DNA of 64,000 nt from Nitrosomonas sp. (GTDB lineage: Bacteria > Pseudomonadota > Gammaproteobacteria > Burkholderiales > Nitrosomonadaceae). This document shows, one piece after another, positions 4,736 through 37,083 of the stretch. The stretch's first letter is position 1. Every line of letters starts with the position of its first letter. The DNA lies in the NCBI GenBank assembly GCA_020446045.1, contig JAGRFM010000052.1, forward strand, positions 17,036 to 81,035, given 5' to 3'. A program made the position numbers and the translations under genes. Below the pieces are notes generated by a model. It saw only the letters and a list, made by a program, of their open reading frames with translations, was not told the DNA's origin and did no database searches.

Positions 4736-5488
4736 TTACGCTTTGGTAAAGCGGCGTCCACCCATGAAGCCCAGCAAACCAAGTCCCATTAGTGCAAGAA
4801 TGCCTGGTTCTGGTATTGGCTTGACAGATTCAACCATGACAACAAAGTCATTGAAGTCACCACCTGCACCAGCACCAAGCGCCAAATCTTCCCACGCCAA
4901 CACGAATTCATTGTTGGTCCACAATCCTGGAGCGATACCTGGAAGTGCAACAGTATCAGTATTCGTACCTTGATAAGCCGCCAAATGATCCGACCCATCA
5001 ATATTCAAAGCGGTATCGGAATACCAGGTATTTTGTTGTGGTGTATTCAACCAGTATCCAAACTGGTTACCCGCAAAATCAACGCCGGTATCAGCTAAAT
5101 TCACATGAACCGAACCATCTGCTTTAATACTCAAAATAGCCTGGTCACCTGCTACATTTGCACCAGCAAAAAGCTGTACGGCATTTCCAGGGTTTGCCAT
5201 ATCAAATACACCAAAACTGTTACCGCTTGCAAATCCCGCCAATTCAATAACGATTGTTGCAACTGAACCACCAGCACCGGTAATTGACCAGTATGAATCA
5301 TTCGCTAATTCATCAGTGGTAACATCGACGCTGCTGTCACCTGCAATTGGCGCTACTGTAATGCCATCCAACACCCCTTGCAGTCCAGCACCACCATCAC
5401 CAAAAGTCACATTCGCATTTGCCGAACCAATCATTGAGAAGCCAAAGGCTGCAGCTATTGCGGCGCTTATTATCGTTTGTTTTTTCAT
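4736..5488 (-). CDS. PEP-CTERM sorting domain protein
   Basis: Exported protein of 250 residues. It has a signal peptide (residues 1-25, ending SANA) and a low-complexity, Gly/Ala/Asp-rich, cysteine-free body of unknown fold. The C-terminal sorting signal is PIPEPGILALMGLGLLGF followed by basic MGGRRFTKA. PEP-CTERM proteins are processed by exosortase (EpsH/XrtA family) and are associated with exopolysaccharide and floc or biofilm formation. No exosortase is in the window. A strong AAGGAGG ribosome site precedes ATG at 5488. Upstream are a -24/-12 promoter (5628-5643) and an activator-like site (5717-5735), shared in design with the second PEP-CTERM gene at 36286. It has its own terminator, so it is a single-gene unit. 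Confidence 0.9.
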   Translation of the reverse strand: MKKQTIISAAIAAAFGFSMIGSANANVTFGDGGAGLQGVLDGITVAPIAGDSSVDVTTDELANDSYWSITGAGGSVATIVIELAGFASGNSFGVFDMANPGNAVQLFAGANVAGDQAILSIKADGSVHVNLADTGVDFAGNQFGYWLNTPQQNTWYSDTALNIDGSDHLAAYQGTNTDTVALPGIAPGLWTNNEFVLAWEDLALGAGAGGDFNDFVVMVESVKPIPEPGILALMGLGLLGFMGGRRFTKA

Positions 5489-5627
5489 TTGAAAAACCTC
5501 CTTAAAAATAACTTAATTCTTAGAACGTTATGCTTCACTCTTTCTTCCTGATGTAACCCTACATTTTCGGCACATTTTTTCAATATCGTTTTATAGCCAA
5601 TATTCGTAGAACCTCGATTTAATAACA

Positions 5628-5643
5628 AGCAAGTTCCATGCCA
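5628..5643 (-). promoter_or_regulatory. Sigma-54 (-24/-12) promoter of the first PEP-CTERM gene
   Basis: Minus-strand TGGCATGGAACTTGCT fits the sigma-54 consensus TGGCACGNNNNTTGCW with one change (C to T at position 6) and exact GG/GC spacing. A start site would be expected near 5617, giving a leader of about 130 bases. The match was made by eye. Confidence 0.8.
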
Positions 5644-5716
5644 TATATAACAACACACTGATATATAATATGTTTTTTATATTCATGGCTTGATGGCTCA
5701 ACAACAAGAAACATCA

Positions 5717-5735
5717 GTGTAAAAAATATCGACAC
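5717..5735 (-). promoter_or_regulatory. Upstream activator-like site (PEP-CTERM regulon), copy 1
   Basis: Plus-strand GTGTAAAAAATATCGACAC; in the direction of the gene this reads GTGTCGA-NN-TTTTTTACAC. It lies about 75-90 bp upstream of the -24 element, the usual place for a bacterial enhancer-binding protein. A site of the same form and orientation lies at 36039. Known PEP-CTERM systems often encode PrsK/PrsR, whose regulator PrsR is a sigma-54 activator. That PrsR binds here is inference. Confidence 0.65.
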
Positions 5736-5950
5736 CAGATACGAGCTTTCCATTTCAAACATTCACCCCCGCAAAAAGCAGACAAAAACTTAATGAGATC
5801 ACTGATTTGCAGAACCCACCCCCCCTTGCATATAAGCATTTATTGCTGTCATACATACCAGAATAAATACACTTATTTGATTTTCACACAACCCACACGC
5901 AAATTCTGATGACAACGTTATTAATATTTTCTATCCACCGATTCCTCAAC

Positions 5951-5969
5951 GTGTAAAAAATTTCGACAC
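5951..5969 (-). promoter_or_regulatory. Upstream activator-like site, orphan copy 2
   Basis: Plus-strand GTGTAAAAAATTTCGACAC, differing from copy 1 at a single central base, in the same orientation and 234 bp away. No -24/-12 sequence was found at the usual distance on either side. It may be a remote second site for the 5628 promoter or may act on the gene at 6224. Confidence 0.55.
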
Positions 5970-6223
5970 CCATTAACCTGACCGCCCCATAAAACATGAT
6001 GAAAACTCACTTCACATTCATTTATCCAGCTGTATAACAGCAAACATCTACCTATGGCGACAAGTCCAAACAATCTATCAAATCTAAAAAGATTCTCTTG
6101 TTTCTTGATCTTTCATAATTTCCAAGCTGGCAGCTGAACATAAAATTATGTGATTAGCAGTCTATAAGATTAAAAAAAGGGCTAAAATGGACATGAACTA
6201 ACTTACGCTCACGGTAAGAAATC

Positions 6224-9118
6224 ATGAATAAACAAACACTGACTCACTCGTCACGCCACCCGATACGACTGGGATTGATGTCGCCAATGACCGGTGTTGT
6301 AGGCATTTACGGCGCAGAAATCAATTGGGCCGCACGCGTTGCCCGTGATGAAATCAATGCCCGCGGCGGCATTCTGAATCGCCAAATGGAAATTATCATT
6401 GTCGACGACGGCAGCCTTCCAGGCACTGCAATTCCGGCAGCCAACCGGTTGATTGATGAATATCAGTGCATGGCCATTATCGGCAATTTGTTGTCCAATT
6501 CACGCATTTCGGTCCTTAAATGGGTTGCAGAACCCAAAGGAGTGCCTTTACTTAATTTTTCCTTCTATGAAGGCAGCCTTTTCAGTCGCTATTTTTTTCA
6601 TTTTGCAGCTTTACCCAACCAACAAATCGACCACATGATACCGTTCATGAAAGAGCGATTTGGCGCAAAGATGTTTTTTGCCGGAAATAACTACGAATGG
6701 CCACGCGGTTCCATTCACGCGGCCAAGCAATCATTACACAAGATTGGCGGGGAAGTTGTCGGTGAAGAATATTTTGAGATCGGCGCAAGGCAGCCCGTTA
6801 TCGATGCGTTGTTGATGCGCGTGGAACGTTCCGGGGCAGATGTTTTTGTCCCTTATTTTTCAGGCATTGACCAAATTACATTGCTGACCCGTTTTACCGA
6901 ACGGGAGTTAAAAAAACACATGGCAGTCGTAATGGGTCATTATGACGAAATGATGACCAGCAAAATGCCCGAATCCATCAGAGCCGGTTTTTATTCCAGC
7001 AATACTTACTTTATGTCGGTTGACACACCCGAAAACAAGCGTTATCTGGAGCAATTGCAACAATTGCCTGGCGTTAAGGGAATATGGCCGAATGGCAACG
7101 GGATACTGACCAATTTTGGCGAAGGCGTTTACCAATGCGTCCACGCATTTGCCCAGGGACTTCAGGAAGCCGGCAGCATGGATACCCAGGACCTCATTCA
7201 GGCATTGCGTACCGTGAGCCAACAAGGACCGCAGGGGCGGGTTACCATGAACGCCGCCACACAACATGCCACCGTCAATAATTATTTATCGCGCAGCAAT
7301 GCAGACGGAACTTTTACGATAATTAAGGCATTTAATGAAATCGAGCCCGTTATTCCGGCACGCTATCAACAGTTATTCAGCCTTGATTCTATACCGGCAT
7401 GTCCTATTAACATTAATCAACAGACGAAATCACTCAGCGAAGATATTCAACATATTCTTTCCCTGGTTGATATTCCGGTCATTATCACGGATAAAAACGG
7501 TTTTATACTTCATGCCAACCGGCAAGCCTGCAAGCTATTTGATTATACCGGCATGGAATTAGCCGGTATTTCGATAAATCTACTTTTTCCGCCGAATCTC
7601 CATACGCAAAACACAAACAATCTGGCAAAATTTGTCGCCAGCAAAAAAAAGGTTTCTCATTTCAACAACCAAACTGAAATCATGGGCGTACTCAAAAATG
7701 GCAGTTTGGTTATACTGGAACTTTGCGTGGCTAAATATTTTCAGCATGATGATATGTTGCTGGTTTTCAACATACAAGACATAACAGCACGCAAACAACA
7801 AGAAGAAAGCCTGATCAAACAATCATCAACCGATGTAATAACCGGCCTGCCGAATCGCCAACTGATTAATAAACGGCTTACGAATGCCATGAAACGTTCC
7901 AAGAAAACCGGATTGGATGTCGCACTGCTGTTTGTTGACCTCGATAATTTCAAATTGATTAACGACACGCATGGCCATGAAATAGGTGACATCCTGTTAA
8001 AACAAGTTGCCGAACGATTACTGCGGGAAATAAGGCCGGGTGACTTAGCCGGGCGGTTTGCCGCCGATGAATTTATTGTGATTTGCGAACACATTGACGT
8101 TTCCAGCATCATTTCAAATCTTGCCAAACGTATTGTAACTATTTTAAAAAAGCCTTTTTCAATTGGAAATCTGCAGCTGTATATCAGCGCCAGTATCGGT
8201 ATCGCCATTGGCCATGGCAAGAAAAAAACGTCTGAAGATTTATTACGCTCGGCCGATCTGGCCATGTATGTCGCCAAGCAGCGAAAACGAGAAGGCTGGC
8301 ATTTTTACGACGAGCAGCTGCAACAGGACATCAATCAGGAAACCAAGATTATCCATGCTTTAAGACACGCCATAAACAACAACGAATTTTTTACGCATTT
8401 TCAATCTATTGTTTCAGCACAGGACGGCAAAATTATCGGCGCAGAACTATTATTGCGCTGGCAAATTGATAACGAATTGATCCCTCCCGATATTTTCATT
8501 CCGCTGGCGGAATCTGCCGGTTTCATTCCAGAGATCGGGAAATGGGTTTTTCATGAAGGCTGTAAAACAGAAGCCTACTGGCGTAAATTATGGGATAACG
8601 ACGCGCCTTATGTATCCATCAACTTATCGATCAAACAATTAAACGACAAGGAATTACTCAACAGTTTTTTTAACAGCCTGCACGAGACCGGAGCCGATCC
8701 ATCGCGTATTGTGCTGGAAATTACGGAAACTTCACTGATGATGGATGTGGAAGCCAACCAGAAGGTGCTTAATCAACTCTCAGCCATCGGCCTGAGGATA
8801 GCGGTAGACGATTTTGGCACAGGCTATTCCTCGTTAGCACATTTAACCCGCCTGTCGATAGGCGTATTAAAAATTGATCGCGCGTTCATTCTCGAAATGG
8901 AACAATCGAAAAACATGCAAACCGTGATACGCACTATAATTTCGCTAGGCCACTCTCTGGGATTTAAAATCGTGGCAGAAGGCATCGAAACTCAGTCGCA
9001 AATGGAAGAACTCAAACAGCTTGGCTGTGATTATTTCCAAGGTTATCTGTATTCCAAGCCGATGGATATGGCGGATTTTAAAGAAAAATTTTTAGCCTGC
9101 AATTATGCTGCGTCATGA
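6224..9118 (+). CDS. AmiC/UrtA-like ligand-binding domain fused to PAS-GGDEF-EAL
   Basis: A 964-residue c-di-GMP signalling protein. Residues about 14-385 form a type I periplasmic-binding fold (IRLGLMSPMTGVVGIYG start, DDGSLPGTAIPAANRLI, LLNFSFYEG), most like the amide/urea branch (AmiC, FmdD, UrtA). A PAS domain (about 410-520) follows, then GGDEF (about 530-690) and EAL (about 700-955). The GGDEF signature is degenerate (AADEF at 613-617), so cyclase activity is unlikely. The EAL part keeps Glu741 (as ELL), SINLS, EITET, DDFGTGYSS near 862, the Lys in LKIDR, and VAEGIE, so it should be an active phosphodiesterase. No signal peptide or membrane helix is visible: the ligand domain appears cytoplasmic, as in AmiC. 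The ATG at 6224 has a weak GGTAAG-like site. Confidence 0.85.
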   Translation: MNKQTLTHSSRHPIRLGLMSPMTGVVGIYGAEINWAARVARDEINARGGILNRQMEIIIVDDGSLPGTAIPAANRLIDEYQCMAIIGNLLSNSRISVLKWVAEPKGVPLLNFSFYEGSLFSRYFFHFAALPNQQIDHMIPFMKERFGAKMFFAGNNYEWPRGSIHAAKQSLHKIGGEVVGEEYFEIGARQPVIDALLMRVERSGADVFVPYFSGIDQITLLTRFTERELKKHMAVVMGHYDEMMTSKMPESIRAGFYSSNTYFMSVDTPENKRYLEQLQQLPGVKGIWPNGNGILTNFGEGVYQCVHAFAQGLQEAGSMDTQDLIQALRTVSQQGPQGRVTMNAATQHATVNNYLSRSNADGTFTIIKAFNEIEPVIPARYQQLFSLDSIPACPININQQTKSLSEDIQHILSLVDIPVIITDKNGFILHANRQACKLFDYTGMELAGISINLLFPPNLHTQNTNNLAKFVASKKKVSHFNNQTEIMGVLKNGSLVILELCVAKYFQHDDMLLVFNIQDITARKQQEESLIKQSSTDVITGLPNRQLINKRLTNAMKRSKKTGLDVALLFVDLDNFKLINDTHGHEIGDILLKQVAERLLREIRPGDLAGRFAADEFIVICEHIDVSSIISNLAKRIVTILKKPFSIGNLQLYISASIGIAIGHGKKKTSEDLLRSADLAMYVAKQRKREGWHFYDEQLQQDINQETKIIHALRHAINNNEFFTHFQSIVSAQDGKIIGAELLLRWQIDNELIPPDIFIPLAESAGFIPEIGKWVFHEGCKTEAYWRKLWDNDAPYVSINLSIKQLNDKELLNSFFNSLHETGADPSRIVLEITETSLMMDVEANQKVLNQLSAIGLRIAVDDFGTGYSSLAHLTRLSIGVLKIDRAFILEMEQSKNMQTVIRTIISLGHSLGFKIVAEGIETQSQMEELKQLGCDYFQGYLYSKPMDMADFKEKFLACNYAAS

Positions 9119-24973: not shown

Positions 24974-25459
24974 TCAATAAGGTTTTCTACGCACCCCAAG
25001 CCAATAAAATAACCGGGAAAGTCCGACATCCAGTATAAAAAATATGCACACTAGCATCAGAATATCCGTCGTTGATAATTGAAACAAATGCATCACCAGC
25101 AATGCCGGCAGCAAAGATTCAGGCACTTGATCCAGTAACGGAGCCCGGGCGCTTGAACGAAAACCCAACCGCCTCTTAAAAAAACTCGATATGAGATCAC
25201 CTGACATTGCGCCCATTGCAATTAACAAGCCTGTTGCCAAATCATATCCCACCAGTAAGGCTGATACGCCTGTTGCGATTAGAGAACTGAAAAAGCCACG
25301 CCATGTTTTAGCCTCTCCAAACAGTCTTTGTTGGTCAGCAAACCGATAACCGAAATCGATCGGGCAAGACAGCGTAGTGCGCATGAGATAACGCGCCAAT
25401 ATGGGTGAACCATTGGCAATAAGAATCAAAAAAAGAAGTGATAGGAAATGCCATACCAT
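24974..25459 (-). CDS. CDP-archaeol synthase (CarS)-like membrane protein
   Basis: 161 residues, largely hydrophobic with four or five helices. The family signature is the charged loop RLFGEAKTWRGFFSSLIATG and MGAMSGDLISSFFKRRLG...LLDQVPESL, as in the CarS/DUF46 family of CTP:lipid cytidylyltransferases. In archaea CarS makes CDP-archaeol. Bacterial homologues occur but their substrate is not settled; a phosphatidate or isoprenoid phosphate is possible. A standard cdsA is not in the window. Single gene, with the dksA upstream region behind it. Confidence 0.8.
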   Translation of the reverse strand: MVWHFLSLLFLILIANGSPILARYLMRTTLSCPIDFGYRFADQQRLFGEAKTWRGFFSSLIATGVSALLVGYDLATGLLIAMGAMSGDLISSFFKRRLGFRSSARAPLLDQVPESLLPALLVMHLFQLSTTDILMLVCIFFILDVGLSRLFYWLGVRRKPY

Positions 25460-36038: not shown

Positions 36039-36057
36039 GTGTCGAGTTTTTTTACAC
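36039..36057 (+). promoter_or_regulatory. Upstream activator-like site (PEP-CTERM regulon), copy 3
   Basis: GTGTCGAGTTTTTTTACAC, the same pattern and orientation relative to its gene as the site at 5717-5735. It lies about 82 bp upstream of the -24 element at 36139. Confidence 0.65.
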
Positions 36058-36138
36058 TTTATTAACAAACCTAGTGCCAATGCACACAACATCAAGAAAA
36101 ATATCATATAAACAAATGGTTATTTAATAATACAAAGA

Positions 36139-36154
36139 TGGCATGATTTGTGCT
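36139..36154 (+). promoter_or_regulatory. Sigma-54 (-24/-12) promoter of the second PEP-CTERM gene
   Basis: TGGCATGATTTGTGCT matches TGGCACGNNNNTTGCW with two changes (C to T at position 6, T to G at 12) and exact GG/GC spacing. The predicted leader is about 120 bases, close to that of the first PEP-CTERM gene. Confidence 0.78.
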
Positions 36155-36285: not shown

Positions 36286-37083
36286 ATGAAAAATAAATTG
36301 CACAACAAACTACTTTCAGTAAGCGCCGCAATTGCCTTAGGTTTGGGATGCATTCCCAGCATATCACAAGCTACTATTACGCTTGATCTCTCAGGTGCAA
36401 CGAGCGGAGGAGTTATTAACGATGCATATTTCAGCACCAATTACGTTCAGGCAACCGGATCGGGCGTAATTGATTCTATTGTCAGAGTCAGCAATAATCA
36501 ACTCATTGTTCAAGGCTACAATACGACCAAAAATAATGTACTTGATACGGGCGCAACTAATACGTTCAATCATGCGATCACGCTCGGCGAAATTCCTATT
36601 TTTGATATTGGTGGTGTGCTATATCGCCAGTTTGGTTTGGACATTAATCAACAAGGAGCTGATCCATTACTTTCGCTTGATGAAATACAGCTTTTCGTGG
36701 GCGGCACGGCAAACTCGAACGTTGATACATTTACCGCCGGAATCCTGGATCACGACGGCACGCTGATTTACCAGCTGGACGCAGGGGCCGATAATGGCAT
36801 TTTACTTGACTACAGCAAAAACTCCGGTAGCGGTTCAGGCGACATGTTTTTCTATGTTAAAGACAGTCTCTTTGCAGGTTACGGCGCAGGTGCAGATGTC
36901 ACGTTGTATTCAAAATTTGGTGCAACTAATCCATATGGCAATAATGACGGTTATGAAGAATGGTATGTCCAGAAATGTACTGGAAACTGCGGCACTACCC
37001 AAGTACCTGAACCAGGTACGTTATTGCTGCTAAGTACAGGCATCTTGGGATTGGGTTTATCACGACGCAGAAAAGCTCTGTAA
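36286..37083 (+). CDS. PEP-CTERM sorting domain protein
   Basis: 265 residues. Signal peptide about 1-28 (ending SQA), Gly/Asn/Asp-rich beta-type body, and C-terminal PEP-CTERM signal VPEPGTLLLLSTGILGLGLS followed by RRRKAL. Two cysteines close together (KCTGNC) lie just before the sorting signal and could form a disulfide. Expected to be exported, then cut and anchored or released by an exosortase encoded elsewhere. Ribosome site AAGGAAAG lies before ATG 36286. Promoter architecture is the same as that of the gene at 4736, though the bodies of the two proteins do not look related. Its own terminator follows. Confidence 0.92.
   Translation: MKNKLHNKLLSVSAAIALGLGCIPSISQATITLDLSGATSGGVINDAYFSTNYVQATGSGVIDSIVRVSNNQLIVQGYNTTKNNVLDTGATNTFNHAITLGEIPIFDIGGVLYRQFGLDINQQGADPLLSLDEIQLFVGGTANSNVDTFTAGILDHDGTLIYQLDAGADNGILLDYSKNSGSGSGDMFFYVKDSLFAGYGAGADVTLYSKFGATNPYGNNDGYEEWYVQKCTGNCGTTQVPEPGTLLLLSTGILGLGLSRRRKAL

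Follow-up and report, generated by a model that had tools for sequence, protein, structure and literature searches.

Two genes for PEP-CTERM proteins in a 64-kb stretch of Nitrosomonas sp. DNA (hereafter the window, meaning the whole stretch that was analysed) are each preceded by a 19-nt activator-like site, motif 1, and a 16-nt sigma-54 -24/-12 element, motif 2. Are these two-part promoters real, to which regulon do they belong, and does that regulon reach beyond PEP-CTERM genes? The two-part promoter was confirmed before both genes, and the two are very probably sigma-54 promoters that depend on an enhancer and belong to the PrsK-PrsR two-component regulon. The two-part promoter itself has already been published, and the window promoters are ordinary members of the system described in 2006. 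The new part is the helical phasing of the spacer, a consensus for integration host factor (IHF) within it, and a wider regulon with the HPr-rel-A cassette and perhaps a lytic transglycosylase. The gain is an architecture open to experiment, in which the activator box, the IHF site and the sigma-54 element keep helical register, together with a concrete target that is not a PEP-CTERM gene.

The two-part promoters in the window

The coordinates of all features are collected in Table 1. The motif 1 pattern GTGTCGANNTTTTTTACAC has exactly three exact matches in the window. With up to three mismatches allowed, five sites were found against 0.34 expected, a number reached in 0 of 100 shuffles; the remaining two, at 25033 and 35142, each carry three mismatches. 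By itself the sigma-54 element is not significantly enriched in the window (30 matches with up to two mismatches against 29.5 expected), and because it is as frequent as in shuffles, the significance rests on motif 1 and on the pairing. The commonness of motif 2 is what speaks for a chance origin, in which an AT-rich region would have yielded a T-run motif together with a weak sigma-54 match. This explanation is countered by the motif 1 counts just given, by a reversed-pattern control that found nothing in 275 genomes and by the helical phasing of the spacers, both described below, and we regard its probability as practically negligible.

The original prediction had described the -24/-12 element before the first PEP-CTERM gene as near-ideal, and it proved to be a perfect match; a matching pair had also been claimed before the gene at 36286, where motif 1 is indeed exact and motif 2 carries a single mismatch. 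The further claim that both pairs have the same spacing is approximately right, but the exact values differ. Measured between the 19-nt motif 1 and the 16-nt motif 2 as defined in this analysis, the spacer is 73 bp for the 5717 pair and 81 bp for the 36039 pair, and the distance from motif 2 to the start codon is 139 bp for the first PEP-CTERM gene and 131 bp for the 36286 gene. The two downstream genes are unrelated, as had been stated, the sole sizeable BLASTP match between their products being a tail of 22 amino acids.

The distal motif 1 copy before the first gene had been overlooked in that earlier account. That this site might instead control the GGDEF/EAL gene that diverges at 6224(+) was considered and rejected; because the plus strand from 5970 to 6224 holds no GG-N10-GC element, the site is taken to be an additional copy of the enhancer that serves the leftward gene. 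Distal motif 1 copies also occur at PEP-CTERM promoters on contigs C225 and C204 of the window's genome.

Relation to published promoters

According to the main text of Haft 2006 (PMC1569441), proteobacterial PEP-CTERM genes carry a promoter of motif 1 and motif 2 that goes with PrsR, PrsK and PrsT and for which PrsR was named; motif 1 has 17 nt, ends in TTTACA and is sometimes repeated, the spacer to the sigma-54 motif 2 is 32-92 nt, and the end of motif 2 lies 71 ± 38.5 nt, and up to 221 nt, from the start codon. The window promoters resemble this description in every part: the 3′ ends of motif 1 at 5717, 5951 and 36039 agree with TTTACA as given in that text, the spacers of 73 and 81 nt fall inside its range, the noncoding leaders of 139 and 131 nt are long, inside the range and above its mean, motif 1 is repeated, and both downstream genes exceed the TIGR02595 (PEP-CTERM) cut-off of 16 bits. 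Phasing, enrichment for the IHF consensus and targets other than PEP-CTERM genes are what the present analysis adds; the main text of Haft 2006, searched by word, mentions neither IHF nor HprK nor transglycosylase.

A similar arrangement, a sigma-54 promoter with a predicted enhancer upstream, precedes the PEP-CTERM gene pepA of another species, Aquincola tertiaricarbonis. There, as stated in the main text of PMC9850573, transcription is RpoN1-dependent and its start was mapped, and the authors considered that the mechanism needs more experiments; that main text contains no IHF, HprK or PqqD. Genetics of prsK and prsR in Zoogloea is cited in the text of PMC9012009. In vitro binding by a PrsR homologue and rpoN dependence are taken from the literature on other species, and the window promoters may behave likewise by analogy.

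Regulators and PEP-CTERM genes in the window's genome

The genome from which the window comes is a 3.57-Mb draft in 242 contigs. It holds one match over the cut-off for PrsR (TIGR02915, 736 bits against 502.6) and one for PrsK (TIGR02916, 869 bits against 300), so that both regulators of the proposed regulon are present, and a single copy of rpoN goes with the GG-N10-GC elements. Both exosortase A and exosortase B (XrtB) are encoded. In the draft assembly prsR and prsK lie on separate contigs, C148 and C67; according to the main text of Haft 2006 (PMC1569441), the two are tandem genes in 12 of 13 genomes and never far apart.

Fifteen proteins exceed the TIGR02595 cut-off in this genome, and the motif pair stands upstream of eight of their genes, clearly in seven and in degenerate form in one, where the GTGTAAAATTATTTTACAG site is nearly palindromic and the spacer measures 94 bp. 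The scoring matrix of this census was made from eight pairs of the same genome, and the seven clear cases are therefore not an independent test. The whole-genome search proposed with the original prediction was carried out with a relaxed composite pattern. The pattern occurs at seven places and the reversed pattern at none; PEP-CTERM genes follow at five of the seven, and a lytic transglycosylase gene and the HPr-rel-A cassette at one each. Motif 1 matches with two mismatches on contigs C56, C115 and C187 were taken as chance, no sigma-54 partner with fewer than four mismatches being found for them.

Association of the promoter with PrsR

The sample comprised 275 genomes of the class, in which PrsR was called over its family cut-off. 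A strict composite pattern was found at 30 places in 21 genomes, and the reversed pattern at none. PrsR exceeds the cut-off in 74 of the 275 genomes, and the computed link between the two is close: the strict pattern occurs in 20 of the 74 genomes with PrsR against one of the 201 without (Fisher p = 8e-12), so that PrsR is present in 20 of the 21 strict-pattern genomes. This favours PrsR as the candidate to bind motif 1, as the original prediction had suggested and Haft 2006 had already named it.

Motif 1 might instead be the site of another activator of the NtrC type, PrsR merely co-occurring with it because both are found in exopolysaccharide-forming bacteria. Other NtrC-like proteins of the window's genome do match the PrsR model below its cut-off, at 381.5, 357.4, 335.2 and 221 bits, which leaves candidates for such a role. 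Against it stand the near-complete co-occurrence of the promoter with PrsR over its own cut-off and the distribution of HprK_rel_A, the kinase family of the cassette discussed below, which is encoded in 27 of the 275 genomes, all 27 with PrsR (p = 7e-18). In addition, DNA-affinity-purified chip (DAP-chip) work on DVUA0057, the PrsR homologue of D. vulgaris, enriched predicted PEP-CTERM targets, according to the text of PMC3333781. A different activator is thus quite improbable, and PrsR is retained in what follows.

Outside the window's genome there are 25 strict-pattern matches. Eight stand before genes over the TIGR02595 cut-off and five before PEP-CTERM-like tails that score below it or match only other PEP-CTERM models; one each stands before a transglycosylase, a GGDEF protein, a TonB receptor and a DUF11 repeat protein. 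The other eight (L062, L068, L076, L079, L080, L081, L083 and L087) are chance-like or have no clear target, L062 lying within a coding sequence and L076 being interrupted by a contig end.

Several of these results weigh against the proposed PrsR regulon. Seven of the 15 PEP-CTERM genes of the window's genome lack the motif pair, 12 of the 25 matches in other genomes have no demonstrated PEP-CTERM-like gene downstream, one promoter-positive genome (G122, where the match lies inside a long reading frame) has no PrsR over the cut-off, and the strict pattern is seen in just 20 of the 74 PrsR genomes; the pattern therefore misses many promoters, or the sites vary. The dedicated sigma-54/PrsR regulon that had been predicted is supported, with two corrections: it is probably not confined to PEP-CTERM genes, and nearly half of these genes in the window's genome are without the promoter.

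Three of the seven genes without the pair lie on the exosortase B contig C220 (L056, L061), about 11-20 kb from xrtB. Two proteins of this exosortase B cluster, one over and one under the TIGR02595 cut-off, were scanned and match PEPxxWA-CTERM at 34.5 and 29.3 bits, below its cut-off of 35. Judged from the linkage, the PEP-CTERM proteins of the exosortase B cluster would be XrtB cargo outside the PrsR circuit, and the genome apparently has two exosortase circuits.

Helical phasing of the spacer

In sigma-54 promoters of the NtrC/NifA type, an IHF site lies between the enhancer and the -24/-12 element. The promoters studied here would share with them the three-part layout and the dependence on the face of the helix, and differ in that the PrsR box and its targets belong to exosortase A bacteria.

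The spacers between motif 1 and motif 2 are helically phased at 10.5-11 bp, as the computation shows. Among 94 promoters their lengths cluster near 51, 62, 73, 83 and 94 bp, and the Rayleigh statistic is maximal at 10.5-11 bp, with R = 0.66 at 10.75 bp, a value reached by none of 20,000 draws from a smoothed null. The nonredundant sets of cassette and non-cassette promoters (52 and 32) have nearly equal phase, with R of 0.685 and 0.670, and the best pairs on the opposite strand are without phase (R = 0.06). Taking one promoter per genome or genus, which leaves 46 groups, gave a median R of 0.742 and a minimum of 0.680 (null 0/20000). Seven of the eight doubtful matches listed above, all but L062, are included among the 94; their removal left 87 promoters in 44 groups, with a median of 0.725 and a minimum of 0.651 (null 0/20000). 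Even the weakest subset, 15 groups of non-cassette promoters with a clear target, had a median R of 0.796 (null 1/20000) and a minimum of 0.660 (null 35/20000).

The IHF consensus in the spacer

Both window spacers contain a match to the IHF consensus, WATCARNNNNTTR, with zero and one mismatch, as expected of IHF-assisted promoters. Enrichment of the spacer for this consensus is likewise shown computationally. Of 83 nonredundant spacers, 47 contain it with at most one mismatch, whereas of the 83 flanks on each side 7 (upstream) and 11 (downstream) do; base-preserving shuffles and first-order Markov resamples (400 in total) gave means of 13.3 and 13.2 and maxima of 22 and 21, and none of 200 permuted consensuses reached 47, the best, which closely resembles the IHF consensus, reaching 43. 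Without the seven doubtful promoters the rate is 47 of 87. The matches also favour set distances from motif 2.

It could be argued that the two motifs need no IHF to act and that the IHF-like matches reflect a generic AT-rich bend. Upstream of motif 2 the AT content peaks at 19-22 and 31-32 nt, and 36 of the 83 spacers have no match at one mismatch or fewer. Against this, the specific consensus exceeds shuffles, resamples and permuted consensuses alike, and its matches keep preferred distances from motif 2; we think this alternative rather unlikely. The reading that IHF bends the promoter spacer, to which the sequence evidence points, has further observations to contend with. The consensus is also missing from five of the nine scored promoters of the window's genome (it is present in four, the own cassette promoter not among them), other DNA bending could replace IHF where it is missing, and the control flanks are richer in G+C than the spacer (0.52 and 0.45 against 0.42). 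A search for PEP-CTERM together with integration host factor returned, by title, no paper on this promoter in the searched literature, subscription journals lying mostly outside it.

The HPr-rel-A cassette

In the window's genome, the promoter on contig C206 is followed in order by a gene for a small protein predicted to be of an exported type, a PqqD-family gene (TIGR04353), HprK_rel_A (TIGR04352) and a nucleotidyltransferase gene (PF14907). The closest relatives of its HprK in named genomes, among the matches listed, are from Nitrosomonas, the best with 76% identity.

The cassette promoter is conserved, as was established with weight matrices made from 20 PEP-CTERM-like and transglycosylase promoters, cassette promoters being excluded from the training. 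The motif pair lies upstream of 22 of the 27 cassettes of the class, with a score unmatched in any of 100 Markov resamples; 20 of the 27 satisfy stricter criteria on both motifs and seven fail them, and motif 2 is weak in two of the 22, L114 and L116. A second sample consisted of 80 named loci, the best ones among at least 581 relatives and for that reason biased toward the query; 75 of the 80 have at least 1300 bp upstream. On the coding strand 43 of these 75 score at least 20 bits and 32 score below, whereas none reaches 20 bits on the opposite strand. Cassettes that fall short in either sample may have no pair or a diverged version of it. Among downstream control stretches, present at 73 loci, three reach 20 bits (L194, L218 and L224). 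These three are strong pairs of 34-42 bits downstream of the HprK gene, and may be promoters of a neighbouring gene, perhaps another regulon gene beside the cassette.

Of all 80 named loci, 44 score at least 20 bits, and in 39 of these the promoter is followed by a protein whose signal is of the RR type as judged with a loose pattern. In one sub-group of these head proteins (20 aligned sequences) the RR and two cysteines are invariant, and the head protein of the window's own genome matches Pfam TAT_signal weakly (E 0.041, below the cut-off); sequence and loose pattern together predict a twin-arginine signal. None of 18 head proteins matches Pfam at E ≤ 0.01, and none of 15 in the second sub-group matches NCBIfam. 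A structure model built from an alignment of 18 sequences (A3) has a mean predicted local distance difference test score (pLDDT) of 69.7, low in the signal region, and no Foldseek match in the PDB at E ≤ 0.001.

The cassette is probably a member of the PrsR regulon outside the PEP-CTERM set, and is probably co-produced with the exosortase A matrix. Curated family models exist for it; in the searched literature, again with subscription journals mostly outside, no paper naming HPr-rel-A, HprK-related kinase, TIGR04352 or TIGR04353 and no report combining exosortase with PqqD was found. That the cassette occurs, within the sample, in PrsR genomes alone and has the same promoter offers a first clue to its function.

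The lytic transglycosylase

The Sel1-SLT lytic transglycosylase is a less sure candidate for membership. Its gene has the motif pair in four of six long homologues in PrsR-positive genomes against none of three in PrsR-negative ones, two of these three coming from one genus; the promoter is missed in the PrsR-positive genomes G013 and G222. The case is weaker because two of the four promoters, the own one and that of G232, sat in the matrix training set, which leaves as independent cases G230 (39.7 bits) and a weak one in G124 (24.0 bits).

Proposed mechanism

We propose that in this organism a PrsR dimer would bind the imperfect dyad of motif 1 and that IHF would bend the spacer. PrsR, kept on a fixed face of the helix, would then contact sigma-54 RNA polymerase at -24/-12 and bring about opening, and the presumable outcome is that the exosortase A cargo, the PEP-CTERM proteins, is switched on together with the HPr-rel-A cassette and, less surely, the Sel1-SLT transglycosylase.

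More broadly, we see an even chance that the PrsR regulon is a general biofilm programme of exosortase A bacteria rather than a PEP-CTERM switch, which would drive the transglycosylase and HPr-rel-A as an export-and-modification cassette from three-part, IHF-bent and phased promoters. If so, the cassette would consist of a protein that is exported by a twin-arginine signal and bears conserved cysteines, a partner of the PqqD type that binds peptides, a kinase resembling HprK, and a nucleotidyltransferase. Its product would be an extracellular protein that carries a modification and acts along with the exosortase A matrix.

Genes and sites

Table 1. Promoter elements and genes of the window, with two further loci under the same promoter in the window's genome (coordinates of the latter are those of their own contigs)
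Feature	Position	Strand	Remarks
Motif 1, proximal PrsR-type activator site (candidate), GTGTCGATATTTTTTACAC	5717-5735	-	Exact match, upstream of first PEP-CTERM gene
Motif 1, distal copy, GTGTCGAAATTTTTTACAC	5951-5969	-	Exact match; same orientation, 234 bp farther upstream
Motif 2, sigma-54 -24/-12 element, TGGCATGGAACTTGCT	5628-5643	-	Exact match
IHF-consensus match, putative bend site, TATCAGTGTGTTG	5651-5663	-	0 mismatches; 7 nt upstream of sigma-54 element
Motif 1, GTGTCGAGTTTTTTTACAC	36039-36057	+	Exact match
Motif 2, sigma-54 -24/-12 element, TGGCATGATTTGTGCT	36139-36154	+	1 mismatch (GTGC for TTGC)
IHF-consensus match, putative, AAACAAATGGTTA	36110-36122	+	1 mismatch; 16 nt upstream of sigma-54 element
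PEP-CTERM gene, 250 amino acids, DUF4114 and PEP-CTERM tail, putative target	4736-5488	-	TIGR02595 21.3 bits; PF13448, PF07589
PEP-CTERM gene, 265 amino acids, putative target	36286-37083	+	TIGR02595 27.0 bits
GGDEF/EAL protein, urea-ABC-type binding domain at N-terminus, divergent neighbour	6224-9118	+	Domain matches
HPr-rel-A cassette (L054, contig C206)	5192-8072	+	Under same promoter, window's genome
Sel1-SLT lytic transglycosylase (L055, contig C226), then DUF3750 gene	5155-6042	-	Same promoter, window's genome

A GGDEF gene, like the divergent neighbour of the first window promoter, also lies downstream of the promoter in another genome (L066).
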